Positions 911 to 62,793 of a DNA stretch of 64,000 bases are shown here, piece by piece. Source of the stretch: Mariniphaga sediminis. GTDB lineage: Bacteria; Bacteroidota; Bacteroidia; Bacteroidales; Prolixibacteraceae. How positions within the stretch are numbered: the first letter of the stretch is position 1; the number at the start of each line of letters is the position of its first letter. The notes below the pieces were generated by a model. The model saw only the letters and a program-made list of their open reading frames with translations. It did no database searches and was not told where the DNA came from. Both the position numbers and the translations under genes were made by a program. Location: positions 1 through 64,000 of the forward strand of contig NZ_QWET01000013.1 of NCBI RefSeq assembly GCF_003573545.1, given 5' to 3'.

Positions 911-922
911 GGTATTCTTAAA

Positions 923-937: not shown

Positions 938-964
938 GACCCAAATTGTGAAATACAAAAACAG

Positions 965-1109
965 ATAGGACTCCCTTCGGAATCCTATTCTCTATCACGA
1001 CCAGCGCCAAAATGGCGAAGGCTGTCTCTCCCCACTGTTCGTTGTTATACTTATATAATTTTTCTGAAAATCAGCACATAACCATTTAGTGAAGATAATT
1101 TTCAGAAAA
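965..1109. other. Three successive hairpins in the gap between convergent genes
   Basis: This non-coding stretch holds three inverted repeats: ATAGGACTCC with GGAATCCTAT (965-988, one mismatch, 4-nt loop), CGCCA with TGGCG (1005-1017), and a 12-bp perfect pair TTTTCTGAAAAT with ATTTTCAGAAAA (1060-1071 and 1098-1109). The gap lies between the ends of two convergent genes, so transcription termination from both sides is the simplest reading. None has a clear T-tract. Confidence 0.4.
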
Positions 1110-1146
1110 TGTTGTTTTAACACGTTCTCAAAAAAAAGCAAAAAAA

Positions 1147-1566: not shown

Positions 1567-1571
1567 ACTTT

Positions 1572-1994: not shown

Positions 1995-2060
1995 AATACT
2001 TTCTTTTTTGGATTAACGTTAATATCTTCCCGACAACGCCGGGATTAACAATCGGATTTC

Positions 2061-2981
2061 TCAATTTCTTAAATACTCTGCTGCGCTTAACGCTGCAACG
2101 GTTCCCTCTGCCACGGCAGTAGTAACCTGGCGGTAGCGCTTGGCAATGCAGTCACCCGCAGCAAAAATACCATCCACATTGGTTTTCATGGCAGTGTCTA
2201 CTGCAATTTCATTCCGCTCATTCAATTGTATCAACCCTTTCAGGTTTTCGGTGTTGGGCTGGTAACCCACAAAAATAAATGTTCCGTCGGTTTTTAACTC
2301 GCTTCTCTTTCCGGTAGGTAAATGTTCAATTTCCACTTTTTGCAAGACACCGTTTCCGGAAAAACCGCGCAATTCCGATTCCATAATAAAATTGATTTTG
2401 GGATTCCCCTGCGCTTCTTCCACCGCATGTTTAAATGCCTGAAAATGATCGAACTGGTGCACAATAGTCACTTTGGTTGCATATTGTGTTAAAGCTATCG
2501 CCTCTTCCAAAGCCGAATTTCCACCTCCTACCACAACTACTTCTTTCCCGGTAAAAAAATCACCGTCGCAGGTAGCGCAGTACGAAATCCCCTTTCCTTT
2601 AAACTGCTCTTCTCCTTCAACATTCAAAGAACGTGGCCTTCCTCCGGGAGTGAGGATTACCGTTTTTGCCCGGAAACTCCTGCCATCTTCCAACTCTACC
2701 GTTTTTACTTTTCCTTCAAACTGGTAGCGGGCTATTTTTATATTCGACTTTATTTTACACCCGAAACTTTTGGCCTGCTGTTTCATGGTGTTGGCCAGCA
2801 TGTATCCTTTTGTGGCAGGCACTCCGGGATAATTAGCTATTTCTTCGGTAAGCACCATTTGCCCTCCAACTGCCCCTTCGTTTAAAATGAGCGTGGAGAG
2901 TTTGGCGCGCGAGGCGTAAATGCCGGCTGTTAAGCCGGCCGCCCCCGCGCCAATCACCATTACATCAAACACATCCTCCAT
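2061..2981 (-). CDS. Thioredoxin reductase-like flavoprotein with atypical pyridine-nucleotide site
   Basis: A 306-residue low-molecular-weight thioredoxin reductase homologue. The FAD motif GAGAAG is at residues 11-16, the redox-active CATC at 135-138, the second dinucleotide motif GGGNSA at about 152-157, and the C-terminal FAD motif at GIFAAGDC. The HRRxxxR motif that binds the 2'-phosphate of NADPH in classic enzymes is replaced by HQFDHFQ (175-181), so all three arginines are gone. Similar loss is known in NADH-dependent or ferredoxin-dependent relatives. It sits 4 bp after a thioredoxin-like gene. I infer a thioredoxin reductase whose donor is probably not NADPH. Confidence 0.88.
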   Translation of the reverse strand: MEDVFDVMVIGAGAAGLTAGIYASRAKLSTLILNEGAVGGQMVLTEEIANYPGVPATKGYMLANTMKQQAKSFGCKIKSNIKIARYQFEGKVKTVELEDGRSFRAKTVILTPGGRPRSLNVEGEEQFKGKGISYCATCDGDFFTGKEVVVVGGGNSALEEAIALTQYATKVTIVHQFDHFQAFKHAVEEAQGNPKINFIMESELRGFSGNGVLQKVEIEHLPTGKRSELKTDGTFIFVGYQPNTENLKGLIQLNERNEIAVDTAMKTNVDGIFAAGDCIAKRYRQVTTAVAEGTVAALSAAEYLRN

Positions 2982-2985
2982 TTAC

Positions 2986-3342
2986 TTATACTTTTTCTGC
3001 AAACTGTTCGTCTAAAATAGCAGATACCTGCTGCATATTCTGGATGCTACTGGTTGCGTGGGCCACTTTTCCACCTTTGTAGTACATGGTGAACGGTAAT
3101 CCCATAAAACCGCTGCATTCCGGCGCATTGCGAATAACGGCTGCCTCCGGATTATCAAATGCCATAACCGCAAATTTGATATTGGAGCGTTCTTCCTCCA
3201 GCTCTTCCATTACATCGTAAACCGGCATACACATGGGGCCCATCCGCCCGCAACATACCATCACATTCTCGTTTTCTTCTATCATCTTTTTCAGCTCGGA
3301 AGCTGTTTCAATTTCCTGGAGATTTGTTTGTAACAATTTCAT
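2986..3342 (-). CDS. Atypical thioredoxin-fold protein lacking CxxC
   Basis: A 118-residue protein with a thioredoxin-like layout: an N-terminal helix, the strand and active-site segment at residues 27-42, and a cis-proline in GLPFTMYYKGGKV (Pro83). Where thioredoxin has WCGPC, this protein reads CCGRMGPMC: the two redox positions are Met34 and Met37, while cysteines lie at 30, 31, 38 and 76. It is probably co-translated with the reductase-like gene, which starts 4 bp downstream. It may be a dedicated redox or metal-binding partner of that flavoprotein. The family call rests on pattern, not a search. Confidence 0.72.
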   Translation of the reverse strand: MKLLQTNLQEIETASELKKMIEENENVMVCCGRMGPMCMPVYDVMEELEEERSNIKFAVMAFDNPEAAVIRNAPECSGFMGLPFTMYYKGGKVAHATSSIQNMQQVSAILDEQFAEKV

Positions 3343-3372
3343 AATTAATTTATTAAAATTTTAACAATAAGA

Positions 3373-3741
3373 TTAAACATCTATTTTTTTTGTTGAATAC
3401 GTAATTTCCCTAATAATTTTTTCATCCGATTCCAGTTTTCCCTGCAGGTACTCTTCAATTAACACTTCAGGTGAATTCACGGGCACTCCCACAAAAAGAT
3501 TCACTTTTTTGGAAGCGAAAAGATGTATAATTTTCGGGTTTACCCTGAATGTAATTACATCGGTAATCCCCATCTCTTCCAACCACCCGGGAAGTTCGGA
3601 GGTAGTAGTCCCGGCAGGAAGACTCATTCTTTCCCTGTCGACGATTTTCCCGTCGATTCCGAAAATTTCGTAGTGATTGCACTCTCCGAAAAATTCGCTT
3701 AACTGTTCATTTGTCACCGGAATGGCTACCCGTTTTTTCAT
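3373..3741 (-). CDS. NifX/NifB-type FeMo-cofactor-domain protein
   Basis: A 122-residue stand-alone domain of the dinitrogenase iron-molybdenum cofactor family (NifX, NafY, C-terminal NifB), whose members bind Fe-S or Mo clusters in many anaerobes that do not fix nitrogen. The N-terminal pattern MKKRVAIPVTNEQLSEFFGECNH with a ligand-like Glu-Cys-Asn-His, and the middle AGTTTSELPGWLEEMGITDVI segment, fit the family. The frame is open upstream to a TTG at 3765, but the ATG at 3741 starts exactly where homologues begin. It heads the minus-strand redox cluster, divergent from the Crp/Fnr gene. Function in this cell is unknown. Confidence 0.8.
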   Translation of the reverse strand: MKKRVAIPVTNEQLSEFFGECNHYEIFGIDGKIVDRERMSLPAGTTTSELPGWLEEMGITDVITFRVNPKIIHLFASKKVNLFVGVPVNSPEVLIEEYLQGKLESDEKIIREITYSTKKIDV

Positions 3742-3774
3742 ACTATTAAAGTTGTTTGTTTTCAAAAGTATTGT

Positions 3775-3807
3775 ATGCCTGCCCGGCTTTGGCGGTCAGA
3801 CGGGAAA
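3775..3807 (-). repeat. Dispersed intergenic repeat, copy 1 (reverse orientation)
   Basis: Read on the minus strand this contains TTCCCGTCTG, a GCC-rich centre and GGGCAGGCAT. The same scaffold occurs at 15813-15873 and 55644-55703. It lies in the divergent promoter region between the NifX-like and Crp/Fnr genes. Confidence 0.55.
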
Positions 3808-3939
3808 CTTGCATGTATTTTATCATGCTCCTGGACGTAAATATTTTACATGCTCGTTTCATATTCAAAACTTTTCGACAAAAATAGTCCGGACCTCCTT
3901 TCAGGGCAAGAAAAGCGCACTGGCTTATAAAAGGACAGG

Positions 3940-3957
3940 AACTGAAATATTTCAGTT
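3940..3957. promoter_or_regulatory. Perfect 18-bp palindrome upstream of the Crp/Fnr gene
   Basis: AACTGAAATATTTCAGTT is a perfect dyad. It is framed by GACAGGA (3934-3940) and TCCTGTC (3962-3968), a second, offset inverted pair. It lies in the divergent gap between the redox cluster and the regulator, 66 bases before the regulator start codon. Crp/Fnr dimers bind such dyads, so it is a good candidate operator for autoregulation or for the redox cluster. The half-site is not the FNR consensus TTGAT. Confidence 0.55.
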
Positions 3958-3992
3958 TTTTTCCTGTCGCCAGACAGATTGGATTGTTTTTA

Positions 3993-4000
3993 TACATTTG
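3993..4000 (+). promoter_or_regulatory. Bacteroidota-type -7 box for the Crp/Fnr gene
   Basis: TACATTTG matches the TAnnTTTG -7 element of Bacteroidota housekeeping promoters and lies 23 bases before the ATG at 4023. No convincing -33 element was seen. Confidence 0.5.
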
Positions 4001-4022
4001 TAATGATTTCAGAAAGCGAAAG

Positions 4023-4712
4023 ATGAATAACGAACAATCACAAAAAACAGGGCAACCGGGAGCAATCGAGGGGCTTTTTCAACACCTCCCGGAGGCATTG
4101 GCCCAGCTGGCCCAAAACAAAACCCGGATTACTTACCTGAAAGGGGAAACTATTTTCAAACAGGGAGCCTTTGCCCCTTACGTACTTTTTGTGGTGCGTG
4201 GTCTGGTAAAAGTTTACCTTCAAACCGGGTTTGAAAAACAGGTAAATATCAGCCTGGAAAAAACCGGCAATTTCCTGGCGTTCTCTTCCATTTTTGGAGA
4301 AAACATTCACACCTATTCCACACAGGCGCTGAAAGATTCTGAAATTTGTATGATTGAAAAGGAAAGCCTGAAAGAAGTTCTGCTTGAAAATCCACAGTTT
4401 GCGCTGGAAGTCACCTCTAAAAACTACCGAAACGAACGCCACTTACTGGAAATCATAAAAAACCTTTCGTACAAGCAAATGCGTGGAAAGTTGGCTTCCA
4501 GCCTGCTCTACCTTTCGCAGGAAGATTTTTTGAAAGAGAATGTATTTGAATTTCTCACCCGGCAGGAAATTGCCGATTTTGCTTCTGTTTCTACCGAAAG
4601 TGCTATTAAATTCCTGAAAGAATTTGAGAAGGAAAAAATTATCCGACTCAAAGGAAAAGACATTCTTATTACTGACAGGAAAAAGCTGGAGATAATCAGT
4701 AAAACCAGTTAA
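4023..4712 (+). CDS. Crp/Fnr family transcriptional regulator
   Basis: A 229-residue regulator with an N-terminal cyclic-nucleotide-binding-like beta-barrel (about residues 25-145, with the GETIFKQGAFAPYVLFVVRGLVKVYL segment) and a C-terminal winged helix (FLTRQEIADFASVSTESAIKFLKEFEKEKII). The frame extends upstream to a TTG at 3984, but the ATG at 4023 has a GAAAG leader and follows a TAnnTTTG box. No cysteine cluster for an Fe-S centre is seen at the N-terminus, so the signal is unclear. It is divergent from the thioredoxin/OsmC/NifX-like cluster, which it probably controls. ArfB follows 6 bp downstream. Confidence 0.9.
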   Translation: MNNEQSQKTGQPGAIEGLFQHLPEALAQLAQNKTRITYLKGETIFKQGAFAPYVLFVVRGLVKVYLQTGFEKQVNISLEKTGNFLAFSSIFGENIHTYSTQALKDSEICMIEKESLKEVLLENPQFALEVTSKNYRNERHLLEIIKNLSYKQMRGKLASSLLYLSQEDFLKENVFEFLTRQEIADFASVSTESAIKFLKEFEKEKIIRLKGKDILITDRKKLEIISKTS

Positions 4713-4718
4713 GAATTT

Positions 4719-5135
4719 ATGATACTTTCCGACTCAAAAAAAGAAAAGCTTTTAACCGAAGTGCAGGTTTCAGCCAGCAGGAGTAGCGGGCCGGGCGGAC
4801 AGAATGTAAACAAGGTAAATACAAAGATTGAGTTGCGGTTCCCAGTCAGTAAATCGGAAGTATTGAATGAAACCGAAAAAAGGCTTATTCTTTCAAAACT
4901 AAACAGCAGAATCAATCTCCAGGGTGAACTTTTGATAACAGCCAGCTCGGAACGCAGCCAATGGCAAAACAGGGAACAAGCCACCCAAAAATTTTTTGAA
5001 CTCATTGAAAAAGCGCTGACCAGACCGCGCAAAAGAAAAAAAACACAGCCCACTATAGCCTCCCGGCTAAAACGGCTGGAAAGTAAAAAGAAGCGGGGAC
5101 AAAAAAAACAGTTACGTAAACCACCCGATCTATAG
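4719..5135 (+). CDS. arfB: Peptidyl-tRNA hydrolase ArfB (YaeJ)
   Basis: A 138-residue stand-alone release-factor-like protein that rescues stalled ribosomes by hydrolysing peptidyl-tRNA. The catalytic GGQ is at residues 26-28 within SSGPGGQNVNKVNT, and the basic C-terminal tail (KRKKTQP...KKKRGQKKQLRK) that enters the empty mRNA channel is present. Length is typical. It starts 6 bp after the Crp/Fnr gene and probably shares its transcript, although a functional link is not implied. Confidence 0.93.
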   Translation: MILSDSKKEKLLTEVQVSASRSSGPGGQNVNKVNTKIELRFPVSKSEVLNETEKRLILSKLNSRINLQGELLITASSERSQWQNREQATQKFFELIEKALTRPRKRKKTQPTIASRLKRLESKKKRGQKKQLRKPPDL

Positions 5136-5195
5136 CAAATTGGATATTTCGGATGAATATTGTTTCTTTGCTGTAATTAGGGATAAGTTCAATTT

Positions 5196-5705
5196 ATGAG
5201 GAATATTTTACATTTTTTTCGTGTACTCATTATCCGGGTTGTTGACAGCTTTTACTTTCCTTTTCTGAGGTTTGTCCCCATCGAGATTTTCAGGTATGGA
5301 GTTACGGGAGGCGCCAATACGGCTTTCGATATTTTTCTCTATTTTATTTTTTACAGGTATATTCTCGACCGTCAAATTCTCGATCTCGGTTTTGTTGCTA
5401 TCAGCCCGCATATAGCGGCATTCTTAATGGTTTTTCCCATTACCTTTATTACAGGTTTTATTTTGGCCAAATATGTTACTTTCACTGCCTCTGAGCTGCG
5501 CGGGCGCATTCAGCTATTTCGCTACGGAGTTACCGTACTGGCATCAATTCTGCTCAATTATGTTTTTTTGAAATTTTTTGTGGAATATGTGGGTCTTTAC
5601 GCCACTTTATCAAAAATGCTGACTACTGTTATCGTCGTTGCATTTAGTTACCTTTCGCAACGCTATTTCTCTTTCAAAACGGCCACAATTTACAAGACTA
5701 CTTAA
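5196..5705 (+). CDS. GtrA family membrane protein
   Basis: A 169-residue integral membrane protein with four predicted helices (about residues 32-52, 65-90, 102-122 and 128-148) and the GtrA-type motif FRYGVTGGANTAFDIFLYFIFYRY. GtrA-like proteins are thought to help move lipid-linked sugars across the inner membrane or to assist glycosyltransferases. No glycosyltransferase gene is adjacent, so the substrate cannot be suggested. The CPBP protease gene begins 37 bp downstream. Confidence 0.85.
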   Translation: MRNILHFFRVLIIRVVDSFYFPFLRFVPIEIFRYGVTGGANTAFDIFLYFIFYRYILDRQILDLGFVAISPHIAAFLMVFPITFITGFILAKYVTFTASELRGRIQLFRYGVTVLASILLNYVFLKFFVEYVGLYATLSKMLTTVIVVAFSYLSQRYFSFKTATIYKTT

Positions 5706-5742
5706 CCAAAAAAATGTTTATCTTGTATTGAATATTTGGAGC

Positions 5743-6564
5743 ATGCAGCTATTGAAGCAAACATATTATCCAACCATTATGCAGGCCATTCACCTGCTGA
5801 TTCTTTATCTGTTTATTCAAACGGTTGTTGATTTCCCCCTGGCTCTGATCGATTATTACCATGGCACCGATTATCTCTACAATCCCGTAAAAAAAATTAT
5901 TTTAAATACAGGTTCCACATTATTTATCCTTCTGTACGGTTTCCGCAAATCGAAGTCGCCATTGAAGGAAGTTTTTCCTCTCAAGTTTTTTAACCCCCTT
6001 GTTTTGATTCCCCTAATTACTTTTTTCTGGGGCGCCCATAATTTACTGGATGAGTTAAACCTAGTCATTGAAAAGGTACTCCCCGCCCCTCCCTGGTTTT
6101 GGGAACTGTTTGGCAAAATTTTCGACAGCGATTTTGGCTGGTGGGGTGCTTTTATGAAAGTAGCGGTTATTGCTCCGGTTGTAGAAGAACTGATTTTCAG
6201 GGGACTTATCCTGCACGGACTCCGGAAAAACTACCATGCGTTTACGGCAGTTTTTATGTCAGCCCTGCTGTTTTCGTTATTTCATTTAAACCCCTGGCAA
6301 ATGCCCGCAACCTTTGTTTTGGGCTTGTTGCTGGGCTGGATTATGATTCGTACCCGAAGCATCTTGCTTGCCATACTTGGCCATTCAATTAACAACCTAA
6401 TGGTTTTGCTTACCATTACCTATTGGCAACAAATTAATACTTATGCACTTTTTCTGATGGAGAAAAATGAAAAGCTCATGGTAAGCAGCCTGCTCGTTCT
6501 CCTCTCTTTAATCCTGATTTACTTCTCTTCCTTATGGCCTTCAGGAAAGAAGAAAACAAAATAA
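5743..6564 (+). CDS. CPBP family intramembrane metalloprotease
   Basis: A 273-residue multi-pass membrane protein of the CPBP/Abi (CAAX prenyl protease-like) family. The catalytic motifs are visible: EELIFRG with preceding APVV (near residue 150), the histidine in SLFHLNPWQ (near 185) and GHSINN (near 220). The frame is open from a TTG at 5638, overlapping the GtrA gene, but the ATG at 5743 has a TTTGGAG ribosome-binding site and starts the protein where the first hydrophobic region begins. Substrate is unknown; members act in prenyl processing, bacteriocin immunity or membrane proteolysis. Confidence 0.86.
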   Translation: MQLLKQTYYPTIMQAIHLLILYLFIQTVVDFPLALIDYYHGTDYLYNPVKKIILNTGSTLFILLYGFRKSKSPLKEVFPLKFFNPLVLIPLITFFWGAHNLLDELNLVIEKVLPAPPWFWELFGKIFDSDFGWWGAFMKVAVIAPVVEELIFRGLILHGLRKNYHAFTAVFMSALLFSLFHLNPWQMPATFVLGLLLGWIMIRTRSILLAILGHSINNLMVLLTITYWQQINTYALFLMEKNEKLMVSSLLVLLSLILIYFSSLWPSGKKKTK

Positions 6565-6702
6565 TCCATTTTGATAAACATTCCGGTTGTTCCTCTGTTA
6601 TTTTTCTTATATTGACCAAAGCTTTTATTTGAACTTATTCTCATAAAAAAACGTTTAGACAATAAAAAAATAAATTCAATAACAATTTAAATTACTAAAA
6701 TC

Positions 6703-7350
6703 ATGGAAGAAGAAAAAGTAATGACAATGCCACGTATTGGCGACAAAGCACCTGACTTTAGTGCCAACACCACTTGGGGACCTATTCAGTTTTCAGAATA
6801 TAACAAAGGAAGTTGGGTGGTTTTATTTTCTCACCCAGCCGACTTTACACCCGTATGTACTACAGAGATGAGTGGTTTTGCCGTTCGCAGCAAAGAGTTT
6901 GAAGAAAAAAATACCAAACTCATGGGATTAAGTATCGACAGTATTCATGCGCACGTTGCCTGGGTAAACAATGTTAAGAAAAACACAGGCGTGCTGTTTA
7001 ACTTCCCGATTATTGCCGACATTGACATGAAGGTTTCAAAATTATATGGAATGTTGCAGCCCAACGAAAGTGAAACTGCCGCTGTAAGAGCCGTATTTTT
7101 TATTGACCCACAAGGGAAAATCAGACTGATTATGTACTACCCGCTGAATGTGGGAAGGAATATGGATGAAATCATCAGGGTGTTGACTGCTTTGCAGACA
7201 GCCGACAAACACAGCGTTGCCCTGCCACTTGACTGGAAGCCAGGCGAAAAAGTGATCGTACCTCCGCCAAAAACGGTTGCCGAGATGGAAGAACGTGAAA
7301 AGAGCGACTATGAAATGGTGGACTTTTATCTCGCCAAAAAAAGTTTATAA
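6703..7350 (+). CDS. 1-Cys peroxiredoxin (Prx6 type)
   Basis: A 215-residue peroxiredoxin that reduces hydrogen peroxide and organic peroxides. The peroxidatic cysteine lies in HPADFTPVCTTEM (Cys53); it is the only cysteine in the protein, so there is no resolving cysteine and an external thiol must regenerate it. Length and the long C-terminal dimerisation domain (from about residue 160) fit Prx6. Expression is probably independent: a gap of about 140 bp precedes it and a strong hairpin follows. It complements the redox cluster 3 kb upstream. Confidence 0.93.
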   Translation: MEEEKVMTMPRIGDKAPDFSANTTWGPIQFSEYNKGSWVVLFSHPADFTPVCTTEMSGFAVRSKEFEEKNTKLMGLSIDSIHAHVAWVNNVKKNTGVLFNFPIIADIDMKVSKLYGMLQPNESETAAVRAVFFIDPQGKIRLIMYYPLNVGRNMDEIIRVLTALQTADKHSVALPLDWKPGEKVIVPPPKTVAEMEEREKSDYEMVDFYLAKKSL

Positions 7351-51671: not shown

Positions 51672-51672
51672 G

Positions 51673-51708
51673 AAAAGGGAGAGTAATTCAGGTTACTTTC
51701 CCTTTTTT
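51673..51708 (+). terminator. Probable original terminator of the tRNA gene
   Basis: AAAAGGGAGAGTAA pairs with TTACTTTCCCTTTT (one wobble) around TTCAGG, followed by TTAATTT. It begins two bases after the right repeat, at the distance where a tRNA terminator would stand before the island came in. Confidence 0.8.
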
Positions 51709-51798: not shown

Positions 51799-51806
51799 TA
51801 TATTTG
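51799..51806 (+). promoter_or_regulatory. -7 box for the TCA cluster
   Basis: TATATTTG matches TAnnTTTG and gives a 5' leader of about 100 nt before the aconitase ATG. Confidence 0.55.
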
Positions 51807-51915: not shown

Positions 51916-54177
51916 ATGTTTGATGCGGACTTAATTAAAAAAGTTTATGAGCAAATGCCCAATCGGGTAGAAAAAGCCAAAAAAAAATTGAAACGACCCC
52001 TTACATACGCGGAAAAGATTTTATATGCCCATCTGTTTGAGACTCAAACACTGGAGACATTTGGACGTGGGAAAGACTATGTTGATTTTGCCCCGGACCG
52101 TGTTGCCATGCAGGATGCCACCGCCCAGATGGCGCTGCTTCAGTTTATGAATTCGGGAAAGGAGACTACATCAGTTCCATCCACGGTACATTGCGACCAC
52201 CTGATTCAGGCGCATATTGATGGTAAAACAGACCTCAGCACCTCATTCAATGTAAACAGGGAAGTGTTTGATTTTTTAGAATCAGTTTCGAATAAATATG
52301 GTATCGGATTCTGGAAACCCGGCGCCGGAATTATTCACCAGGTTGTACTGGAGAATTATGCTTTTCCCGGAGGAATGATGATTGGTACCGACTCGCACAC
52401 TCCGAATGCCGGAGGATTGGGAATGATAGCCATTGGTGTGGGTGGAGCCGATGCAGTAGATGTAATGGCCGGGATGCCCTGGGAACTGAAAATGCCCAAG
52501 CTGATTGGAGTTAAACTTACCGGAAAGCTGAATGGCTGGACCGCCCCAAAAGATATTATACTGAAAGTGGCCGGTATTCTCACAGTAAAAGGAGGTACAG
52601 GAGCCATTGTAGAGTACTTTGGTGAAGGAGCTGAATCACTTTCGGCCACCGGAAAAGGTACCATATGTAATATGGGAGCCGAGGTGGGAGCCACCACCAG
52701 TATTTTTGCTTATGACGACAGCATGGAACGTTACCTGCAAGCTACCGGCAGGGCGGAAGTAGCTGAAATGGCCAAAGAATTGAAAGATGTTCTTTCTCCC
52801 GACCCGGAAGTTTATGAAAACCCTGAAAAATATTATGACCAGTTAATAGAGATTAATCTCTCTGAACTGGAACCACATATTAACGGACCATTTACCCCCG
52901 ACCTGGCAACCCCGGTTTCTGAAATGAAAAAAGTAGCAGAAAAGAACGGCTGGCCTCTTGATGTTTCGGTAGGACTCATCGGAAGTTGTACAAATTCATC
53001 TTACGAAGATATTTCACGTGCATCGTCTATTGCCAAACAGGCAGTTGACAAAGGATTGAAAGTTAAATCAGAGTTTACCATTACTCCCGGGTCCGAACAA
53101 GTGCGTTATACCATCGAACGCGACGGATATATCAATACTTTTGAACAAATGGGTGGTAAAGTATTTGCCAATGCCTGTGGTCCGTGTATCGGACAATGGG
53201 CGCGGCCTGGTGCCGAAAAAAACGAGAAGAACACCATTGTACATTCATTCAACCGGAACTTCTCAAAAAGAAACGATGGCAATCCAAATACCCATGCGTT
53301 TGTAACGTCGCCTGAGCTGGTTACTGCCCTGGCAATTTCCGGAAGGCTTGATTTTAACCCGATAGAAGATACGCTTGTTAACGATAAAGGAGAAAAAGTA
53401 AAACTTGATCCCCCAACGGGTTTTGAATTACCTGTAAACGGGTTTGAAGTAAAAGATGCCGGTTATCAGGCTCCGGCCAAAGACGGGTCCCAGGTTAATG
53501 TTTCGGTTGAGCCTGACTCAAAAAGGTTACAATTGCTTGAGCCTTTTGCCGCATGGAACGGTAAAAATATAAGTGGGGCCAAACTGCTCATCAAAGCTCT
53601 TGGGAAATGTACTACCGACCACATTTCGATGGCCGGACCATGGCTTCGTTTCCGGGGACACTTAGACAATATTTCGAATAATCTGCTCATAGGTGCTGTA
53701 AACGCTTTCAATAATGAAAGCAATAAAGTAAAAAACCAACTTACAGGGGAATATGGTGAAGTGCCTGCGGTTCAGCGCGACTATAAGGCGAACAATATTC
53801 CCACAGTCATTGTGGGCGATCATAATTATGGAGAAGGTTCTTCCCGCGAGCATGCTGCAATGGAGCCCCGGCATCTTGGTGTGAAGGCTGTGATTGTAAA
53901 ATCATTTGCGCGCATTCATGAAACAAACCTGAAAAAGCAGGGAATGCTTGGGCTTACCTTCGCCAATGAAGCGGATTATGATCTGATTCAGGAAAATGAC
54001 ACATTCAATTTTGTTGACTTAGAGTCATTTGCTCCGGAAAAACAACTTACAGTTGAAGTCGTTCATGCAGATGGTTCCAAAGATGCCATCAAATTGAACC
54101 ACACATATAATGCGCAGCAAATTGAATGGTTTAAGGCCGGATCAGCCCTGAATCTGATTAGAAAACAAAATATTTGA
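51916..54177 (+). CDS. Aconitate hydratase (mitochondrial type)
   Basis: A 753-residue aconitase that converts citrate to isocitrate with a 4Fe-4S cluster. Cluster cysteines are in [17 protein letters not shown] and [12 protein letters not shown]; substrate residues include [12 protein letters not shown] and the C-terminal swivel [22 protein letters not shown]. The length and sequence follow the mitochondrial aconitase branch, not AcnB. It opens a same-strand row with two isocitrate dehydrogenases and citrate synthase, so the path from acetyl-CoA to 2-oxoglutarate is encoded together. Confidence 0.96.
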
Positions 54178-54358: not shown

Positions 54359-55588
54359 ATGCAAAAAATCAAAGTTCAAAATCCTGTGGTAGAACTCGAC
54401 GGAGACGAGATGACCCGGGTAATCTGGGATTTTATTAAACAAAAGCTGATCTTACCTTACCTTGATATCGAATTAAAATATTTCGATTTGGGTATGGAGC
54501 ACCGGGATGCAACGGACGATCAGGTTACGGTTGACGCCGCACACGCCATACAAAAATACGGTGTGGGTGTAAAATGCGCCACCATTACCCCCGACGAAGT
54601 GCGCCTGGAAGAATTCGGGTTGAAACACATGTGGAAATCACCCAATGGTACTATCCGTAATATTTTGGGAGGAACGGTTTTTCGTGAACCCATTCTCATC
54701 AAAAATATTCCCCGTTTAGTGCCGGGCTGGAAGCAACCGATTTGTATCGGGAGGCATGCTTTTGGAGACCAGTATCGTGCTACAGACTTTGTGACCAAAG
54801 GCAAAGGTAAACTGACCATCACATACACTCCTGACGATGGCAGCGAACCTATTTCACACGAAGTGTATCATTTTGAAGGAGATGGCGTGGCAATGGCGAT
54901 GTACAATACCGACGAGTCTATCCGCGGTTTTGCACGTTCCTGCATGAACCAGGCCATTCTAAAAAAATGGCCGCTTTACATGTCGACAAAAAATACGATT
55001 CTGAAAAAATATGATGGCCGTTTTAAAGATATTTTCCAGGAAATTTACGAGAACGAATACAAAGACAAGTTTGAAGAAGTTGGGATTACTTACGAACACC
55101 GTCTGATTGATGACATGGTGGCCGCTGCATTGAAATGGGAAGGGGGCTTTGTGTGGGCCTGCAAAAACTACGACGGAGATGTGCAGAGCGACACCGTAGC
55201 ACAGGGTTTCGGTTCGTTGGGACTGATGACTTCAACGCTGGTTACTCCTGACGGCAAAACGATGGAAGCCGAAGCGGCTCACGGAACCGTTACGCGCCAC
55301 TTCCGACAGCACCAAAAGGGAAATCCCACATCAACCAACCCCATTGCCTCCATTTTTGCGTGGACACGTGGCCTCGAATTCAGGGGGAAACTAGATGAAA
55401 ATGAAGATCTCATCAATTTTGCCAATACACTGGAACAAGTGTGTATAGAAACCGTAGAATCTGGAAAAATGACAAAGGATCTGGCGCTTATCATTCATGG
55501 TAAAGGTCTGAAAGAAGAACATTACCTTACCACTCAGGGATTCCTGGAAGCATTGGATCAAAATCTGCAAAAGAAACTCGGCGTATGA
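54359..55588 (+). CDS. NADP-dependent isocitrate dehydrogenase, eukaryotic (IDH1) type
   Basis: A 409-residue homodimeric-type isocitrate dehydrogenase (decarboxylating) that yields 2-oxoglutarate. The substrate segment [20 protein letters not shown] and the metal-site [28 protein letters not shown] are clear. The cofactor loop reads [14 protein letters not shown], with the Arg-His pair that binds the 2'-phosphate of NADP in human IDH1. Start is an ATG after an A-rich leader, 180 bp after aconitase. A second, bacterial-type enzyme follows. Confidence 0.95.
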
Positions 55589-55643
55589 AACGATCATGCA
55601 TAAATATATTTACGCAAAAGCATGGTTATGATTTTTATGAAAA

Positions 55644-55703
55644 TTCCCTGCCTTCCTACATGGGCGGGCAGGCATCTGTTACCATTAAAAAAGAACAATT
55701 GTA
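55644..55703 (+). repeat. Dispersed intergenic repeat, copy 3
   Basis: TTCCCTGCCTTCCTACATG leads to GGGCAGGCATCTGTTACCATT and an A-rich tail with AAGAACAATT. It closely matches 15813-15873 and lies between the two isocitrate dehydrogenase genes, 12 bases before the second ATG. Confidence 0.75.
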
Positions 55704-55715
55704 AACAGATGAAAA

Positions 55716-56978
55716 ATGGATAAAATAAAAAACATAAACGGAAAGCTACAGGTACCCGACAATCCGGTCATTCCATTCATTGAAGGAGACGGTATTGGGC
55801 GGGATATTACCGGCCCTTCCCAAAAGGTAGTTGATGCCGCAGTGGTGAAAGCTTACGGAAAAAGCCGTAAAATTACCTGGAAAGAAGTTCTGGCTGGTGA
55901 CAAAGCCTTTCGAAAAACCGGGAATTACCTTCCGGATGAAACGATCAATGCTTTTAAAGAATATCTCGTGGGAATAAAAGGGCCGTTGCAAACGCCCGTA
56001 GGTGAAGGAATCCGCTCACTTAATGTAGCACTGCGACAATCCCTCGACCTGTTCGTATGTCTCCGTCCGGTACGCTGGTTTAAAGGAGTCCCCTCGCCTA
56101 TCCGGTATCCGTCGCTGGTGGACATGCATATTTTCCGCGAAAACACGGAAGATATTTATGCAGGAATAGAATACATGGCCGGCGAGTTGGATGCTCAGAA
56201 ACTGTGTGATTTCCTTGTAAAAGAAATGGGGGTAGACAAAATCCGATTCCCCGAATCTTCATCTTTTGGTATTAAACCAGTGTCAAAAGAAGGTTCTGAA
56301 AGGTTAATCCGGGCTGCCATTAAATATGCAATCCAAAGAGGATTGCCTTCTGTTACGCTGGTGCACAAGGGAAACATCATGAAATTTACAGAAGGAGCTT
56401 TCAAAAACTGGGGATACGACCTGGCCGAAAGTGATTTTGCTGAAAAAACCTTCACATGGAGGCAATTCGAAAAAATAAAAACGGAAAAAGGCCGTCTTGA
56501 TGCAGAAAGCGCTCTGGAGAACGCGCAAAAAGAAGGAAAGGTTATTATAAAAGATGTTATAACCGATGCCTTTTTGCAGGAATCGCTTTTAAAGCCTTAT
56601 GATCATTCGGTAATTGCCACGATGAACCTGAACGGTGACTACATTTCCGATCAGTTGGCAGCAATGGTTGGCGGCATAGGAATCTCGCCCGGAGCCAATA
56701 TCAACTTCATGAATGGCTACGCAATTTTCGAAGCAACCCATGGTACAGCTCCGGATATTGCAGGTTCCGGAAAAGCAAACCCCAGTTCGCTTATCCTTTC
56801 CGCCGTAATGATGCTCGAATATATGGGATGGTACGAAGCAGCTGAGCACGTTTACGATGCTATGGAGCACGTGTTTGCCAAACGTAAAGTTACATCTGAC
56901 CTTTATGCGCAGATGGAGGGAGCCAGACTGCTCACCACTTCAGCTTTTGCAGATGAGATAATTAAAAACATTCATTGA
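55716..56978 (+). CDS. icd: Isocitrate dehydrogenase, E. coli Icd type, predicted NAD-dependent
   Basis: A 420-residue enzyme of the bacterial Icd subfamily ([34 protein letters not shown], with the substrate Ser at 101; [51 protein letters not shown]). The cofactor determinants differ from the NADP enzyme: E. coli Lys344-Tyr345 are Asp347-Ile348 here (HGTAPDIAG), and Tyr391 and Arg395 are Ser394 and Ala398. Asp-Ile is the NAD-type pair. The enzyme is thus predicted to make NADH, unlike the IDH1-type enzyme upstream. The start ATG follows an intergenic repeat. Confidence 0.94.
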
Positions 56979-57002: not shown

Positions 57003-58334
57003 ATGGAATACATTAAGTACCGGTTTTTTCAAAAAGCAAGTAAATGCTCCAAAGAATTTCAGCGGATAAAAAATGAACACGCTGATAAAGTCATAGCAAA
57101 GGTTACTTTGGGACAGGTGTTTTCAGGAATGAAAGGCATCCCGTTATTGGTAACCGACACTTCGAAACTAGACCCCAACGAAGGCATTCGGTTTAAAGGA
57201 TACTCTATCCCGGAGCTGCGGGAGAAGCTGCCTAAAATTTCTCCGGAAGGAGAACCTTTACCAGAAGGTCTTTTTTATTTAATGCTGATTGGGGAGATTC
57301 CCACGCAGGATGATGTGAATAACCTGTCGAAAGATTTTGCCACCCGGGCGCATGTACCGCAGCATGTTTTCGACGTTATTGATGCCATGCCAAAAAATTC
57401 GCGGCCGATGACACAATTCAGTGCTGCCATTTTATCGTTGGCTACTGAATCCATCTTCCAAAAGGCTTACCGTGCAGGAGTAAACAAAAAATATTTCTGG
57501 GATTCGACGTACGAAGATGTAATGAACCTGATTGCCCGGTTACCGCATATTGCAGCATACATTTACAGGCGCAATTTTTACAATGAACAACATATTGAGC
57601 CCAACCCACGTCTCGACTGGGCCGGAAACCTGGCACACATGATGGGATTCGACTCCGAAGACATCCGCCGGTTATTTCGTCTTTACATGGTAATTCATGC
57701 TGACCACGAAGGAGGAAATGTTTCTGCACATACCGCCCACCTCGTAGGTTCGGCATTAAGTAATCCTTACTATGCTTACGCCGCTGCGATGACTGGTCTG
57801 GCCGGACCGTTACATGGCTTTGCCAACCAGGATGTTATTCACTGGATGTTCCAGATGATTGAAGACCTTGATACGGATACGCCTACCGACGAACAGGTAG
57901 CAGCCTATATTAAACAAACACTGGAAGAAGGCCGTGTGATACCGGGATACGGGCATGCCGTACTGCGCAAAACCGACCCGCGGTTTACAGCCCAGCAGGA
58001 ATTCGCCGATAAATACATTAAAGACGATTTCATGATAAATCTTGTGAATCAGTTGTACCGCGTAGTACCACCCATTCTTTCGAGCATCGGCAAAATTAAA
58101 AACCCGTGGCCGAACGTGGATGCTTTCAGTGGTTCGCTGCTTTATCACTACGGAATTAAGGAATATACTTTCTACACTGTTTTATTTGGAGTTTCAAGGG
58201 CATTGGGTGTACTTGCGTCGCTTGTAAATGACCGTGTTTACGGAATGCCTATTGAGCGGCCTACCTCTCACCCACTCCAATGGTTTCGTGACCAGGTAGA
58301 TAAAGAAAATGAAGGAACTGAAAAAAAATGCTGA
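57003..58334 (+). CDS. Citrate synthase, eukaryotic (mitochondrial) type
   Basis: A 443-residue citrate synthase. It resembles the mitochondrial homodimeric enzyme and not the shorter bacterial hexameric form: GPLHGFANQDVIHWMFQM with the first catalytic His, and GRVIPGYGHAVLRKTDPRFTAQQEFADKY with the second His; the catalytic Asp is in NVDAFSGSLLYHYGI. It starts 24 bp after icd and ends the TCA row, so oxaloacetate plus acetyl-CoA to 2-oxoglutarate can be made from one transcript. A long inverted repeat follows. Confidence 0.95.
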   Translation: MEYIKYRFFQKASKCSKEFQRIKNEHADKVIAKVTLGQVFSGMKGIPLLVTDTSKLDPNEGIRFKGYSIPELREKLPKISPEGEPLPEGLFYLMLIGEIPTQDDVNNLSKDFATRAHVPQHVFDVIDAMPKNSRPMTQFSAAILSLATESIFQKAYRAGVNKKYFWDSTYEDVMNLIARLPHIAAYIYRRNFYNEQHIEPNPRLDWAGNLAHMMGFDSEDIRRLFRLYMVIHADHEGGNVSAHTAHLVGSALSNPYYAYAAAMTGLAGPLHGFANQDVIHWMFQMIEDLDTDTPTDEQVAAYIKQTLEEGRVIPGYGHAVLRKTDPRFTAQQEFADKYIKDDFMINLVNQLYRVVPPILSSIGKIKNPWPNVDAFSGSLLYHYGIKEYTFYTVLFGVSRALGVLASLVNDRVYGMPIERPTSHPLQWFRDQVDKENEGTEKKC

Positions 58335-58854: not shown

Positions 58855-59469
58855 ATGACTGAAATAAAGAAAGACAATACCGAGGAAAAAATTTTGAATG
58901 CCGCAAAAAAGGTTTTCACACACAAAGGAATGGATGGTGCACGGATGCAGGAAATTGCAAACGAAGCTGGGATCAACAAAGCGCTGCTTCACTACTATTT
59001 CCGGACAAAGGAAAAGTTGTTCGAAGCTATTTTCAGAAAAGTATTTCGCCAGGTTTTTCCCAACATCAACACATTGATAAACTCCGATCTTCCCTTCGAA
59101 GAAAAACTGGGGACTTTCATCGACAAATACATCGAACTGCTGATAAAAAATCCATTTCTACCTTCCTTCATTTTAAAAGAAATTCATCGCGATCCTGAAT
59201 TCCTGGCTTCGGTAATAAAAAGTTCGGGGGTAAAACCACAGGAAATTTTCGGCATGTTTGAGAGGGAAATAGAAGCAGGCAAAATCCGCAAAGCCAACCC
59301 AAAAGATTTATTAATCAACATGCTTGCCCTGAGTATTTTCCCGGTTGCGGCCAAACCTCTCATGAAAATAATGTTTTTTGAAAATGACAATAAAGCCTAC
59401 AACGATTTTCTTCTCGAAAGAAAAAAAACAGTGAAAGAATTCATTCTAAATTCAATTCTGATAAAATGA
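58855..59469 (+). CDS. TetR/AcrR family regulator of the exporter operon
   Basis: A 204-residue repressor. The helix-turn-helix is at residues about 10-55 (EEKILNAAKKVFTHKGMDGARMQEIANEAGINKALLHYYFRTKEKLFEAIF); the remainder is the ligand-binding helical domain. Its stop codon overlaps the ATG of the TolC gene by 4 bases (ATGA), so it is the first gene of the exporter operon and should repress it until a ligand binds. Repeated GGTTAAA motifs around its promoter are the likely operators. Confidence 0.93.
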   Translation: MTEIKKDNTEEKILNAAKKVFTHKGMDGARMQEIANEAGINKALLHYYFRTKEKLFEAIFRKVFRQVFPNINTLINSDLPFEEKLGTFIDKYIELLIKNPFLPSFILKEIHRDPEFLASVIKSSGVKPQEIFGMFEREIEAGKIRKANPKDLLINMLALSIFPVAAKPLMKIMFFENDNKAYNDFLLERKKTVKEFILNSILIK

Positions 59470-60731
59470 AAACAGTACTGCTGCTAATTTTACTTTTGAA
59501 TGTCACAACCATTTTTGCCCAGCCTGCGGTTTCTCTTGATGACTGCTATACCTGGGCGCGTGAGAATTACCCCAACCTGAAACAGGTGGAAATTTGGCAG
59601 GAAATAACATCCCTAAAAATGGAAAACATTCAGACCAATTACCTGCCGCAGGTAATGCTAAATGGGCAGGCCACCTATCAGTCTGATGTTACCAAAGTGG
59701 ACATTTCCATGCCGGGGATTTCAATTCCGTCGGTTTCAAATGATCAATATAAAGCATACGCCGAGCTGAAACAAAGTATTTGGGATGGCGGTATTACGGC
59801 AGCAAGCGCCAAAATGGAAGAGGCTGTTTTGCAAAGCACTCTCTGCCAGGTGGAGGTAGAATTGTATAAATTAAATGAACAGGTTTCCCAGGCTTTTTTT
59901 ACCGCGCTTGCCATGGATAAACAAAAAGAGGTTTTAGCCGCCCAGAAAAAAGTATTGCTGGAAAAACTAAAAGCCGTTCAGTCGGGTGTCGAAAACCAGA
60001 TGCTGGAAAAAACGTCTGTACTGGTACTGGAGGCAGAAATACTGAACCTGGAACAAAATGAACTGCAGTTGGAAGCGGGGAAAAGAACAGCCATCCAAAT
60101 GCTCTCTATTCTGACCGGAATAACCATTGACAAAAGCACAGAATTAAAATATAATACAACACAAATAAACGCACAGAGTCAACTTTCGCGTCCTGAACTG
60201 GAGCTTTTTGAAGCTCAAAAAACAACATTGGAAAAGCAAAACGACTTACTGACCAAAAGTCGTAATCCAAAGATATTTGGCTTTGGGCAGGCAGGCTACG
60301 GACGCCCCGGTTTAAACATGTTAAATGAAAACTTTGACGCCTACTATGTGGTTGGGCTTGGGGTTTCATGGAATGCTTTCGACTGGAAAAAAACCAGCCG
60401 GCAAAAACAGGTACTCCGGCTGCAATCGGAAATGATTTCAAAACAGGAAGAAACATTCAATCAAAATATAAGCCTGTTGCTGGCACAACAAAACGAACAA
60501 ATTGGAAAACTGGAAGAACTATTGAAAACAGATTCAAGAATGGTAACCCTACGTACTGAAATTGCCCAATCATCCGCCTCAAAGCTTGAAAACGAAACCA
60601 TTACAACAACAGACTACATTCAGGATGTGCAGGCAGAAACCATTGCGAAACTCAATGCCGAACTACACCGGATTCAACTGAATGAAGCAAAAGAGAAATA
60701 CAACCTCATTAAAGGAAAAGGTGTGCAGTAG
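59466..60731 (+). CDS. TolC family outer-membrane efflux protein
   Basis: A 421-residue outer-membrane factor with a signal peptide (TVLLLILLLNVTTIFAQ). The two long coiled-coil repeats of the TolC family are visible (LDDCYTWARENYPNLKQVEIWQEITSLKMENIQTNYLPQVMLNGQATY in the first half, and TTLEKQNDLLTKSRNPKIFGFGQAGYGRPG in the second). It forms the exit duct for the adaptor and ABC transporter encoded next. Translation is coupled to the TetR gene. Confidence 0.92.
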   Translation: MKTVLLLILLLNVTTIFAQPAVSLDDCYTWARENYPNLKQVEIWQEITSLKMENIQTNYLPQVMLNGQATYQSDVTKVDISMPGISIPSVSNDQYKAYAELKQSIWDGGITAASAKMEEAVLQSTLCQVEVELYKLNEQVSQAFFTALAMDKQKEVLAAQKKVLLEKLKAVQSGVENQMLEKTSVLVLEAEILNLEQNELQLEAGKRTAIQMLSILTGITIDKSTELKYNTTQINAQSQLSRPELELFEAQKTTLEKQNDLLTKSRNPKIFGFGQAGYGRPGLNMLNENFDAYYVVGLGVSWNAFDWKKTSRQKQVLRLQSEMISKQEETFNQNISLLLAQQNEQIGKLEELLKTDSRMVTLRTEIAQSSASKLENETITTTDYIQDVQAETIAKLNAELHRIQLNEAKEKYNLIKGKGVQ

Positions 60732-60782
60732 GCAGTTTAAACGGACAGTCCATGTATTCAGAAAACAAAAAAACAAGAAACT

Positions 60783-61661
60783 ATGAGAAAAAATTTATTT
60801 GTCGCAGCGCTGGCAGTTTTATTTTTTAGCTGTAATAACAACGATGAAAAATCGGATGCTTATGGAAATTTTGAAGCCGATCCGGTCATCGTTTCTTCCG
60901 AATCGTCGGGAAAAATCCTTCAGCTAAATATTGAAAAGGGGGGGAAAGTCGATGCAGGCTTTGTGGCGTTGATAACAGACACAGTTCAATGGAACCTGAA
61001 ACTGAAGCAGATTGAAGCACAAAAAGCGGCAATTGTTGCCAAACGTCAGGCCATTCAGTCGCAGGTTGTGGTTTTCGAGGAACAGATAAAAAACCTGAGA
61101 ACCAATGAAAAAAGAATAGCCCGAATGGTAAAGGATCAGGCGGCAACCCAAAAACAACTGGACGACATTACCGGGCAAATCAATGTTATTGAAAAACAGA
61201 TTGAAAGTACCAAAACACAATTTACATCTGTGAACAGGGAACTGGATGTGCTGGAAACCCAAAAAGAAACCACTGAAGACTTACTGAGACGCTGTACGAT
61301 AAAATCTCCCGCGAACGGAACTATTCTGGAAACATATATTGAACAGGGTGAACTGGCAACACCCGGTAAACCGCTCTTCAAAATGGCAAATCTGGAGGAA
61401 CTGATACTCAAAGTTTACGTAAGCGGGGCACAACTTCCCCACATTAAAATCGGGCAGCAGGTGGACGTTCTTATCGACAAAACGGCCACTGAGAACCAGA
61501 CACTCCGGGGAAAGGTAACCTGGATTTCGCCGGAAGCGGAGTTTACGCCCAAAATCATTCAAACAAAGGAAGAACGGGTAAAACTTGTGTATGCAGTGAA
61601 AGTAGCGGTTAAAAACGACGGCACACTGAAAATCGGAATGCCGGGTGAGATTAGCTGGTAG
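60783..61661 (+). CDS. HlyD family periplasmic adaptor lipoprotein
   Basis: A 292-residue membrane-fusion protein. It is a lipoprotein (lipobox FFSC, Cys17), with a barrel-sandwich first half (SSESSGKILQLNIEKGGKVDAGFVALITD), a coiled-coil hairpin at about residues 75-165, then ANGTILETYIEQGELATPGKPLFKMANLEELILKVYVSG. It links the TolC duct with the ABC transporter, as in YbhG. Co-directional with TolC; the 51-bp gap contains a short CAGTAGGCAGT-type repeat. Confidence 0.92.
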   Translation: MRKNLFVAALAVLFFSCNNNDEKSDAYGNFEADPVIVSSESSGKILQLNIEKGGKVDAGFVALITDTVQWNLKLKQIEAQKAAIVAKRQAIQSQVVVFEEQIKNLRTNEKRIARMVKDQAATQKQLDDITGQINVIEKQIESTKTQFTSVNRELDVLETQKETTEDLLRRCTIKSPANGTILETYIEQGELATPGKPLFKMANLEELILKVYVSGAQLPHIKIGQQVDVLIDKTATENQTLRGKVTWISPEAEFTPKIIQTKEERVKLVYAVKVAVKNDGTLKIGMPGEISW

Positions 61662-61669
61662 CAAGCCTA

Positions 61670-61709
61670 CAGTATTTAGTAGACAGTATTCAGTAAACGG
61701 TAATCAGTG
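61670..61709 (+). repeat. CAGTA-type degenerate repeat after the HlyD gene
   Basis: The stretch repeats CAGTATTTAGTAGACAGTATTCAGTA and similar words. The same kind of repeat occurs at 62776-62792 and 63833-63851, each time next to a four-helix-bundle gene or relic. Confidence 0.55.
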
Positions 61710-61746
61710 TATAGGTTGACAGTAACTTAATGGCAAAAGTATCACG

Positions 61747-61875
61747 ATGGTTTTTAGAGATCTACATATCAACAAGAAAGGATTTCAATGGAGAATTATA
61801 ACATCTCAGAAATACTCTCCCCTGAACCAAATCAAACGCTCATTGTATTCAACTTGCAGCAAAATAAATCACTAA
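61747..61875 (+). pseudogene. Relic of a four-helix-bundle (S23-like) gene
   Basis: A 42-codon frame with stop directly abutting the ABC ATPase ATG. It begins MVFRDLHINKKGF, like the family start YRDLxVYKKAF, and then jumps to QKYSPLNQIKRSLYSTCSKI, like KYSLTDQIRRSSRSVCANI. The 25 or so residues between and everything after the third helix are missing, so it is a deletion relic. Confidence 0.65.
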
Positions 61876-62793
61876 ATGATAGAAATTAGTCAAATATCAA
61901 AATCCTACGAGGATGTTCAGGCGCTAAAGGAAATCACACTTCAAGTAAATGAAGGGGAACTGTTTGGACTGATTGGCCCTGACGGGGCAGGAAAAACCAC
62001 GCTGATGCGGATTCTGATGACCCTGCTCCTTCCGGACACTGGTGAGGCTAAAATGAACGGATTTGATGTGATAAAGGATTTCAAAAAGATAAGGCATATT
62101 GTGGGTTACATGCCCGGACGGTTTTCATTATACCAGGATTTGAGCGTGGAGGAAAACCTGAACTTCTTCGCCACAGTTTTCGGAACTACAGTAGAAAAAA
62201 ACTACGACCTCATCCGCGACATTTATTACCAGATTGAACCGTTCAAAACGCGGCGTGCCGGGAAACTTTCAGGCGGGATGAAGCAAAAACTGGCGTTGTC
62301 TTGTGCACTCATTCACAAACCTAAAATCCTGGTGCTTGATGAGCCAACCACGGGTGTAGATGCAGTTTCAAGAAAAGAATTCTGGGAGATGCTGAAAAAA
62401 CTGCAAAAAAAAGAAATTACCATCCTGGTTTCAACACCTTACATGGACGAAGCCACCCTTTGCGACCGGGTGGCCCTGATTCAGAAAGGGAAAATACTGG
62501 ACGTGGATTCGCCCCGGCGGATTACCGAAAAATTCCCGCGAAAAATCATCCGGGCCCGTTCCGACGAAATGTACCGGTTAATTAATGATTTGCGGGCATT
62601 TAAAAAGGCAGAGTCTGTATTTGCATTCGGGCAGTATGCCCACTTCACAGGTATTGAGGATAATGTGGAAACGACAGAACTGGATATTTACCTCGAAAAA
62701 CTAAATCACAAAAATGTATTGGTGGAAGAGATTCCGCCTGGAATTGAGGATGTGTTCATGAGTATGCAGGAGCAGGCAGTGAGCAGTGAGTAA
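61876..62793 (+). CDS. ABC transporter ATP-binding protein (YbhF-like, first)
   Basis: A 305-residue ATPase: Walker A GPDGAGKTT (residues 34-42), signature KLSGGMKQK, Walker B ILVLDEPTTGVD. The C-terminal 80 residues form an extra domain as in YbhF/ABC-2 exporters. With the following ATPase it should power an ABC-2 permease pair expected beyond the window. The last residues EQAVSSE and the stop codon fall inside a GCAGTGAGCAGTGAGTAA repeat, so the C-terminus may have been changed by an insertion. Confidence 0.93.
   Translation: MIEISQISKSYEDVQALKEITLQVNEGELFGLIGPDGAGKTTLMRILMTLLLPDTGEAKMNGFDVIKDFKKIRHIVGYMPGRFSLYQDLSVEENLNFFATVFGTTVEKNYDLIRDIYYQIEPFKTRRAGKLSGGMKQKLALSCALIHKPKILVLDEPTTGVDAVSRKEFWEMLKKLQKKEITILVSTPYMDEATLCDRVALIQKGKILDVDSPRRITEKFPRKIIRARSDEMYRLINDLRAFKKAESVFAFGQYAHFTGIEDNVETTELDIYLEKLNHKNVLVEEIPPGIEDVFMSMQEQAVSSE
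62776..62792 (+). repeat. GCAGTGA-type repeat at the end of the first ABC ATPase gene
   Basis: GCAGTGAGCAGTGAGTA supplies the last five codons and most of the stop codon of the ATPase. It precedes the second four-helix-bundle relic by 38 bases. Confidence 0.6.

Follow-up and report, generated by a model that had tools for sequence, protein, structure and literature searches.

Adjacent genes for isocitrate dehydrogenases of opposite predicted cofactor preference in Mariniphaga sediminis and the Prolixibacteraceae

Introduction

Why would a bacterium keep two isocitrate dehydrogenases (IDHs) of different subfamilies side by side, and do the two enzymes divide NAD and NADP between them? The question is raised by a stretch of 64,000 nucleotides from Mariniphaga sediminis (Bacteroidales, Prolixibacteraceae; assembly GCF_003573545.1, contig NZ_QWET01000013.1, positions 1 to 64,000 of the forward strand), hereafter called the window. 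A preliminary description of this DNA had proposed that an IDH1-type enzyme with an NADP-binding loop and an Icd-type enzyme with the NAD pattern lie between aconitase and citrate synthase, and that the cell could set its NADPH/NADH balance at this one step.

Enzyme adaptation has a textbook example in isocitrate dehydrogenase, which may use either NAD or NADP. Mitochondria, like the predicted pair of the window, combine an NADP-dependent type II enzyme (IDH2) with an NAD-dependent one (IDH3) in a single compartment. IDH3 is a hetero-oligomer of the shorter type I branch, whereas the predicted NAD enzyme of the window is a member of the homodimeric Icd family of bacteria. In Bacteroides fragilis the genes for a mitochondrial-type aconitase, icd and citrate synthase are presumably clustered and the IDH is single; compared with that cluster, the row in the window contains an additional IDH of another subfamily. 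As far as the available text of two papers goes, the cofactor choice at IDH is usually tied to growth on acetate via the glyoxylate bypass (PMC3590139; PMC10574006).

Results

Both IDH genes are found where they had been described, between aconitase and citrate synthase, and both lie on the plus strand. The row begins with an aconitase of the mitochondrial type (51916-54177; TIGR01340, 1179 bits, cut-off 825), followed by the type II IDH, predicted to be NADP-dependent (54359-55588; 409 aa), the type I IDH (Icd), predicted to prefer NAD (55716-56978; 420 aa), and citrate synthase (57003-58334; NF007128, 577 bits, cut-off 344). All four genes share the strand and are separated by short gaps of 181, 127 and 24 nt. 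The same gene order was seen in all 17 pair loci compared (L114-L130), one of which (L117) ends at a contig edge before citrate synthase. Judged by order, strand, gaps and conservation, acn, the type II idh gene, icd and the citrate synthase gene probably form one operon.

Regulatory signals around the row were also analysed. A TANNTTTG element, which we take to be the Bacteroidetes -7 promoter consensus, lies on the plus strand at 51799-51806, 109 nt upstream of the aconitase start. It is the sole match within 316 nt upstream of aconitase and no clear TTTG -33 element accompanies it; of the 29 matches on the plus strand of the whole window, none falls into a gap of the four-gene row. Further upstream, a terminator-like hairpin on the plus strand (51672-51707; 16 pairs, of which 4 are G-C, with a T-rich tail) counts as weak, because the scan of the region returned 9 such sites where 7.2 are expected by chance. 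The same scan revealed no terminator-like hairpin, either in the three gaps or 3' of citrate synthase as far as position 58900. A sigma-70 consensus scan of the region gave 19 sites compared to 13.7 (sd 3.7) in shuffled sequence, including weak sites at 54083-54111, inside the end of the aconitase gene, and at 55699-55726, spanning the icd start codon, which may mark internal promoters. Owing to these weak sites near the gaps and the lack of a terminator-like site after citrate synthase, the limits of the operon are putative. Just downstream (58855-62793), genes for a TetR regulator, an outer-membrane efflux protein, a HlyD-type adaptor and an ABC ATPase form an ordinary export row.

The NCBIfam matches place the two IDHs in different subfamilies. 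The first protein matches the type II models NF006156 and TIGR00127 at 751 and 749 bits (cut-offs 335 and 397), and the NF006156 match covers residues 1-407. The loop HGTVTRHFR, expected from the preliminary description, is indeed present and begins at residue 308; the codons for Arg313-His314, the NADP determinants of type II enzymes, lie at 55295-55300 on the plus strand. This Arg-His pair is kept in all 26 aligned type II loops, the window included. Two NAD-specific type II enzymes, OlIDH and ClIDH, have Asp-Met and Asp-Leu instead of Arg-His, and introduction of Arg-His into both resulted in a preference for NADP, as reported in the accessible parts of the two studies (PMC4360740; PMC4420465). 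Comparison with two genomes of the same genus revealed 168 and 181 silent versus 33 and 36 coding codon changes in the type II gene, a ratio of about 5:1.

The second protein matches the Icd models NF005425 and TIGR00183 at 634 and 598 bits (cut-offs 490 and 567). When aligned to Escherichia coli Icd, Lys344 corresponds to Asp347, Tyr345 to Ile348, Val351 to Ala354, Tyr391 to Ser394 and Arg395 to Ala398; E. coli numbering is used below. The Asp347-Ile348 codons are located at 56754-56759, the Ala354 codon at 56775-56777 and the codons from Ser394 to Ala398 at 56895-56909, all on the plus strand. Hence, the alignment agrees with the earlier reading of an Icd-type enzyme with Asp347-Ile348 and no equivalents of Tyr391 and Arg395. 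Ten positions, numbered 113, 115, 119, 129, 153, 160, 230, 283, 307 and 311 in E. coli Icd and taken here to be the substrate, metal and catalytic residues, are unchanged and read SNRRRYKDDD in both proteins. The window Icd thus carries Asp-Ile-Ala at positions 344, 345 and 351 and has lost the Tyr391 and Arg395 anchors, and the NADP-type combination of Lys-Tyr-Val with Tyr391 and Arg395 is absent. In the passages available, Asp-Ile(-Ala) is described as the mark of NAD-specific type I enzymes (PMC3590139; PMC5397045; PMC10380307).

Among solved structures, the best matches of the window Icd were 1hqs (575 bits) and then 2d4v (558 bits). The latter, the Acidithiobacillus thiooxidans enzyme, is referred to as an NAD-IDH in the accessible text of PMC10574006. 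Both 2d4v and the window Icd are type I enzymes with Asp-Ile-Ala and Ala at the place of Arg395; they differ at the place of Tyr391, which is Gly in the former and Ser in the latter. We infer that the window Icd is an NAD-preferring enzyme with a pocket that would lack the anchors for the 2'-phosphate of NADP+. The NCBIfam models label it, above their cut-offs, as NADP-dependent. Since the standard models call this Icd NADP-dependent, a systematic misannotation is likely. In comparison to the two same-genus genomes, 182 and 178 silent changes stand against 50 and 51 coding changes in icd (about 3.5:1). Since silent codon changes outnumber coding ones, neither of the two IDH genes looks decayed. 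Three lines of evidence support, as predictions, the opposite cofactor preferences suggested earlier: the residues themselves, published mutants altered at these positions, and the comparative pattern described below.

The genome of M. sediminis (5.8 Mb, 70 contigs, 99.7% complete) contains four members of the Iso_dh family, namely the pair of the window and two on contig C26. One of the C26 genes was considered as a further IDH and rejected, being LeuB-like (NF002898, 497 bits, cut-off 393). It adjoins the strongest Iso_dh match of the genome, which is probably LeuB; the two genes lie at C26:17168-19269. A third, monomeric IDH was likewise discarded: no match was obtained in this genome and one of 35 genomes searched had a match, the control search being positive in 1 of 14 known genomes. 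No isocitrate dehydrogenase other than the type II enzyme and Icd of the window was found in the genome. Isocitrate lyase was found in none of 60 genomes searched, 36 of them from the Prolixibacteraceae and M. sediminis included (control positive in 8 of 14 known genomes). Hence, the glyoxylate bypass was rejected for this family as the reason for an NADP enzyme.

Full-length 2-oxoglutarate dehydrogenase E1, the transhydrogenase subunit PntB and G6PDH are all encoded in the M. sediminis genome. Across the family, PntB was present in 13 of 18 genomes with both IDHs and unbroken in 6 of 18 others, a weak difference that ignores kinship (p 0.044). For 2-oxoglutarate dehydrogenase the counts were 12 of 12 and 6 of 9 (p 0.063, likewise weak and ignoring kinship); the six include G017, where two pieces fall below the cut-off. 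In genome G023, in which no icd was found, PntB lies in three separate pieces (C6:26098-27000) and appears to be a broken gene.

The distribution of both enzymes was analysed in 140 Prolixibacteraceae genomes, M. sediminis included, with matches accepted at E <= 1e-80. One further assembly, Maribellus sp. CM-23 (L034), is very probably the same as one already present (G104) and was removed from the counts. Icd was found in 84 genomes and type II in 128; among the 103 best genomes (>=90% complete, <=5% contamination) the numbers were 67 and 101. Both enzymes occur together in 81 of the 140 genomes and are same-strand neighbours in 80 of these 81, the remaining genome having the two genes on two contigs. 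The 80 neighbour pairs are spread over 13 of the 23 genera of the family. Reckoned from match ends, the gap between the two genes is roughly 1 to 588 nt (median 97). In three of these genomes (G070, G078 and G160) one gene of the pair is a fragment, and the catalytic positions are intact in 78 of 80 family Icd rows.

Single enzymes were found in both directions. Type II without Icd was observed in 47 of the 140 genomes, some of which are incomplete. Sixteen of these loci were read: in ten (G006, G008, G012, G023, G024, G027, G102, G107, G108 and G155) aconitase, type II and citrate synthase follow each other with no icd between, the aconitase gene running off the contig in some, and in six (G010, G013, G017, G032, G084 and G146) the type II gene alone is visible. 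Icd without type II was found in three genomes. Two of them (G062 and G103) were rejected as real cases, the Icd gene lying at or within about 400 nt of the contig end on the type II side. The third, G022, has an intact row of acn, icd and citrate synthase on one contig (L145) and is the only intact case. Taken together, the NADP-IDH appears to be the core enzyme of the family and the NAD-IDH a conserved, losable addition. One type II gene (G015, C147:14154-15359; genome 84% complete) contains an in-frame TAA stop.

The preliminary description needs one correction, as Asp at position 344 is not the rule for the family. Residues were counted in 79 Icds, leaving out one duplicate row and five fragmentary sequences of the 84 (G062, G070, G103, G141 and G160). 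Position 344 is Asn in 59, Asp in 8, Thr in 6, Ala in 3 and Lys, Gly or Ser in one each; the four genomes of the genus of the window all carry Asp. Ile345 and Ala351 are invariant (79/79), Arg395 is absent throughout (0/79), and Tyr391 is lost in 78 Icds and kept in one. The NADP pattern (Lys-Tyr) is not present in any of the 78 family Icds from genomes that also have type II. As no measured equivalent was seen for Asn, Thr, Ala, Gly or Ser at position 344, strict NAD specificity may fail family-wide.

The sole Lys at position 344 belongs to G022, the genome without type II, and gives the motif Lys-Ile-Ala; it represents a single event, seen in a draft genome that is 95% complete and in which no PntB was found. 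Lys-Ile-Ala is also the motif of the dual-specific IDH of Methylobacillus flagellatus (MfIDH), from which the window Icd differs by its Asp-Ile-Ala. According to the accessible text of the same paper (PMC5397045), MfIDH reaches 182 U/mg with NAD+ and 63 with NADP+, and Lys at this position in the NAD-IDH of Pyrococcus furiosus lowered the Km for NADP about 27-fold. Phylogenetic analysis with the cofactor columns left out did not reject a single origin of the Icds with Ile-Ala/Val (p-AU 0.388; 36 versus 42 rows), and the fewest changes on the Icd tree were three for three motif states. The tree is compatible both with a family enzyme that switched its motif and with one that inherited it.

To look outside the family, 247 genomes drawn over the order were searched (completeness limit 90%; Icd at E <= 1e-100, type II at E <= 1e-80), giving Icd in 83 and type II in 35. 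With four family members (G000, G004, G012 and G026) left out, 243 genomes remained. Icd is present in 80 of them and type II in 31; a single genome (G343) has both, compared to 10.2 expected if the two were independent (hypergeometric p 2.9e-5, kinship ignored). In G343, icd lies about 1.5 kb before type II and the motif is Asp-Ile-Ala. The motif was readable in 79 of the 80 Icds, the other (L282) being truncated before it. The NADP pattern, defined as Lys-Tyr or Arg-Tyr with Tyr391 and Arg395, was found in 62 and not in 17, which comprise 16 Icds with Asp/Asn-Ile-Val/Ala and one with Ser-Leu-Ala. None of the 62 genomes with an NADP-patterned Icd has type II; few genomes hold both enzymes, and this motif contrast is not significant alone (p 0.22). 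Among the 79 readable Icds, 16 have neither the NADP pattern nor a type II partner, which argues that an NADP partner is not obligatory. In Proteiniphilum (L056), an Icd with Asp-Ile-Ala has type II 1.5 kb downstream.

A third kind of motif was observed in Chitinophagaceae, Sphingobacterium and one unplaced Bacteroidetes (L042, L043, L047, L049, L078 and L108). Their Icds have Arg-Phe-Met at positions 344, 345 and 351, Ile or Val at 391 and Lys or Asn at 395, a combination that fits neither of the two cofactor patterns. Type II adjoins such an Icd in two Chitinophaga genomes.

Discussion

The genes, motifs, conservation and co-occurrence described here probably reflect a four-gene operon for the oxidative start of the Krebs cycle, in which type II would use NADP+ and the type I enzyme NAD+, with cofactor preference, co-transcription and physiological role predicted from these data. 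Aconitase and citrate synthase of the same row would deliver isocitrate to both IDHs. Type II would convert it to 2-oxoglutarate with NADP+, yielding NADPH, and Icd with NAD+, yielding NADH. If the enzymes are made together, isocitrate would be split between both routes by the available oxidised cofactor. Given a single transcript, the NADPH/NADH split would be set by kinetics, translation and cofactor ratios and not by separate transcript levels. The initial proposal, that the NADPH/NADH balance of the cell is set at the isocitrate dehydrogenase step, is plausible, and one step of metabolism could supply both biosynthesis and respiration. Lineages that have 2-oxoglutarate dehydrogenase and transhydrogenase may be the main ones to have retained the NAD-IDH.

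Other readings of the pair have to be weighed. The two enzymes might run in opposite directions, the NAD-IDH forward and the NADP-IDH in reverse with NADPH, a proton-driven transhydrogenase closing an isocitrate/2-oxoglutarate cycle that tunes the flux. Sazanov and Jackson reportedly proposed such a cycle for mitochondria. The M. sediminis genome holds the required parts (PntB, 2-oxoglutarate dehydrogenase and IDHs of opposite predicted cofactor), and PntB is more frequent in pair genomes than in other family genomes (13/18 versus 6/18). However, no PntB was seen in 5 of the 18 pair genomes and the association ignores kinship; we regard this cycle as rather unlikely. A similarly low probability is given to an Icd that is dual-specific or uses NADP weakly, the pair being mainly redundancy between enzymes that differ in affinity or stability. 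Asn, Thr, Ala, Gly or Ser removes the NAD-marking Asp in 70 of 79 family Icds, and natural enzymes with Arg-Leu-Val and Lys-Ile-Ala are dual, according to the accessible parts of two papers (PMC10380307; PMC5397045). Nevertheless, the window Icd itself has Asp, and within the family the invariant Ile345 and Ala351 and the general loss of Arg395 and Tyr391 argue against this reading.

Least probable, in our view, is that Icd survives from an older state and is being replaced by type II, so that the pair would represent a transition state. The near exclusion of Icd and type II across the order and the ten family genomes that keep aconitase, type II and citrate synthase without icd would fit a replacement. 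Yet the pair is retained in 80 genomes of 13 genera, the catalytic positions are intact in nearly all rows, codon changes are mostly silent, and the cofactor motif differs from that of most single Icds. The operon in which NADP-dependent type II and NAD-dependent Icd jointly oxidise isocitrate remains our preferred explanation.

We tentatively consider a further possibility, namely that complementarity of the cofactors itself is selected. Across the order, an Icd beside a type II NADP-IDH would always give up its NADP pocket, in the family mostly via Asn-Ile-Ala; where the NADP partner was lost (G022), one substitution to Lys-Ile-Ala would have made the enzyme dual-specific. The partner gene and not the glyoxylate bypass would then be the driver. 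If true, such complementarity would repeat in nature the NAD/NADP switch that engineering has produced in IDHs. No isocitrate lyase was detected in the 36 family genomes searched, yet 81 of 140 genomes keep both cofactor choices; other members keep one IDH, and the substitute carried by one lineage is predicted to be dual-specific. With this natural variation in the IDH set, a comparison of strains could test what drives the choice of cofactor.

Bacteria with NAD- and NADP-dependent IDHs together are already published (PMC4420465; PMC10574006, as far as their accessible text goes). Congregibacter litoralis KT71, like M. sediminis, has two IDHs with different coenzymes, and its crude extract showed activity with NAD+ as well as with NADP+; Xylella fastidiosa and Xanthomonas campestris are also named as such in the accessible text (PMC4420465). 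The roles in C. litoralis are the reverse of those predicted here, since type II uses NAD and the E. coli-like enzyme probably NADP, and the organism has a glyoxylate bypass; the same passages make no mention of adjacent genes (PMC4420465). In the family of the window, no isocitrate lyase was found in 36 genomes. Pseudomonas aeruginosa likewise combines IDHs from two subfamilies, but both are NADP-dependent and the second is a type III enzyme of 741 aa (PMC10574006, in the text available). In titles and abstracts of mostly open-access literature, no conserved tandem of adjacent NAD- and NADP-IDH genes was found. A search of mostly open-access literature returned nothing on the Asn-Ile-Ala motif, the partnerless Lys-Ile-Ala exception or IDH in Prolixibacteraceae.

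Two further observations concern related genes. Some family members contain a third isocitrate/homoisocitrate-like dehydrogenase of 409 aa, which stays under every NCBIfam cut-off. In L134 (G009, 789-7240) it sits between citrate lyase genes (citF, and citE with a citD-like start) and an aconitase-like gene, and similar ORFs were found in L135 and L139. In addition, the Icds of Zophobihabitans (a gammaproteobacterium, L044), Brachyspira (L085) and Mucispirillum (L088) group with Icds of gut Bacteroidales that lack the NADP pattern. In L044 and L088, icd has a Bacteroidales-like aconitase gene as its neighbour; in L085 this gene lies further upstream. These Icds may reflect transfer between phyla in guts.
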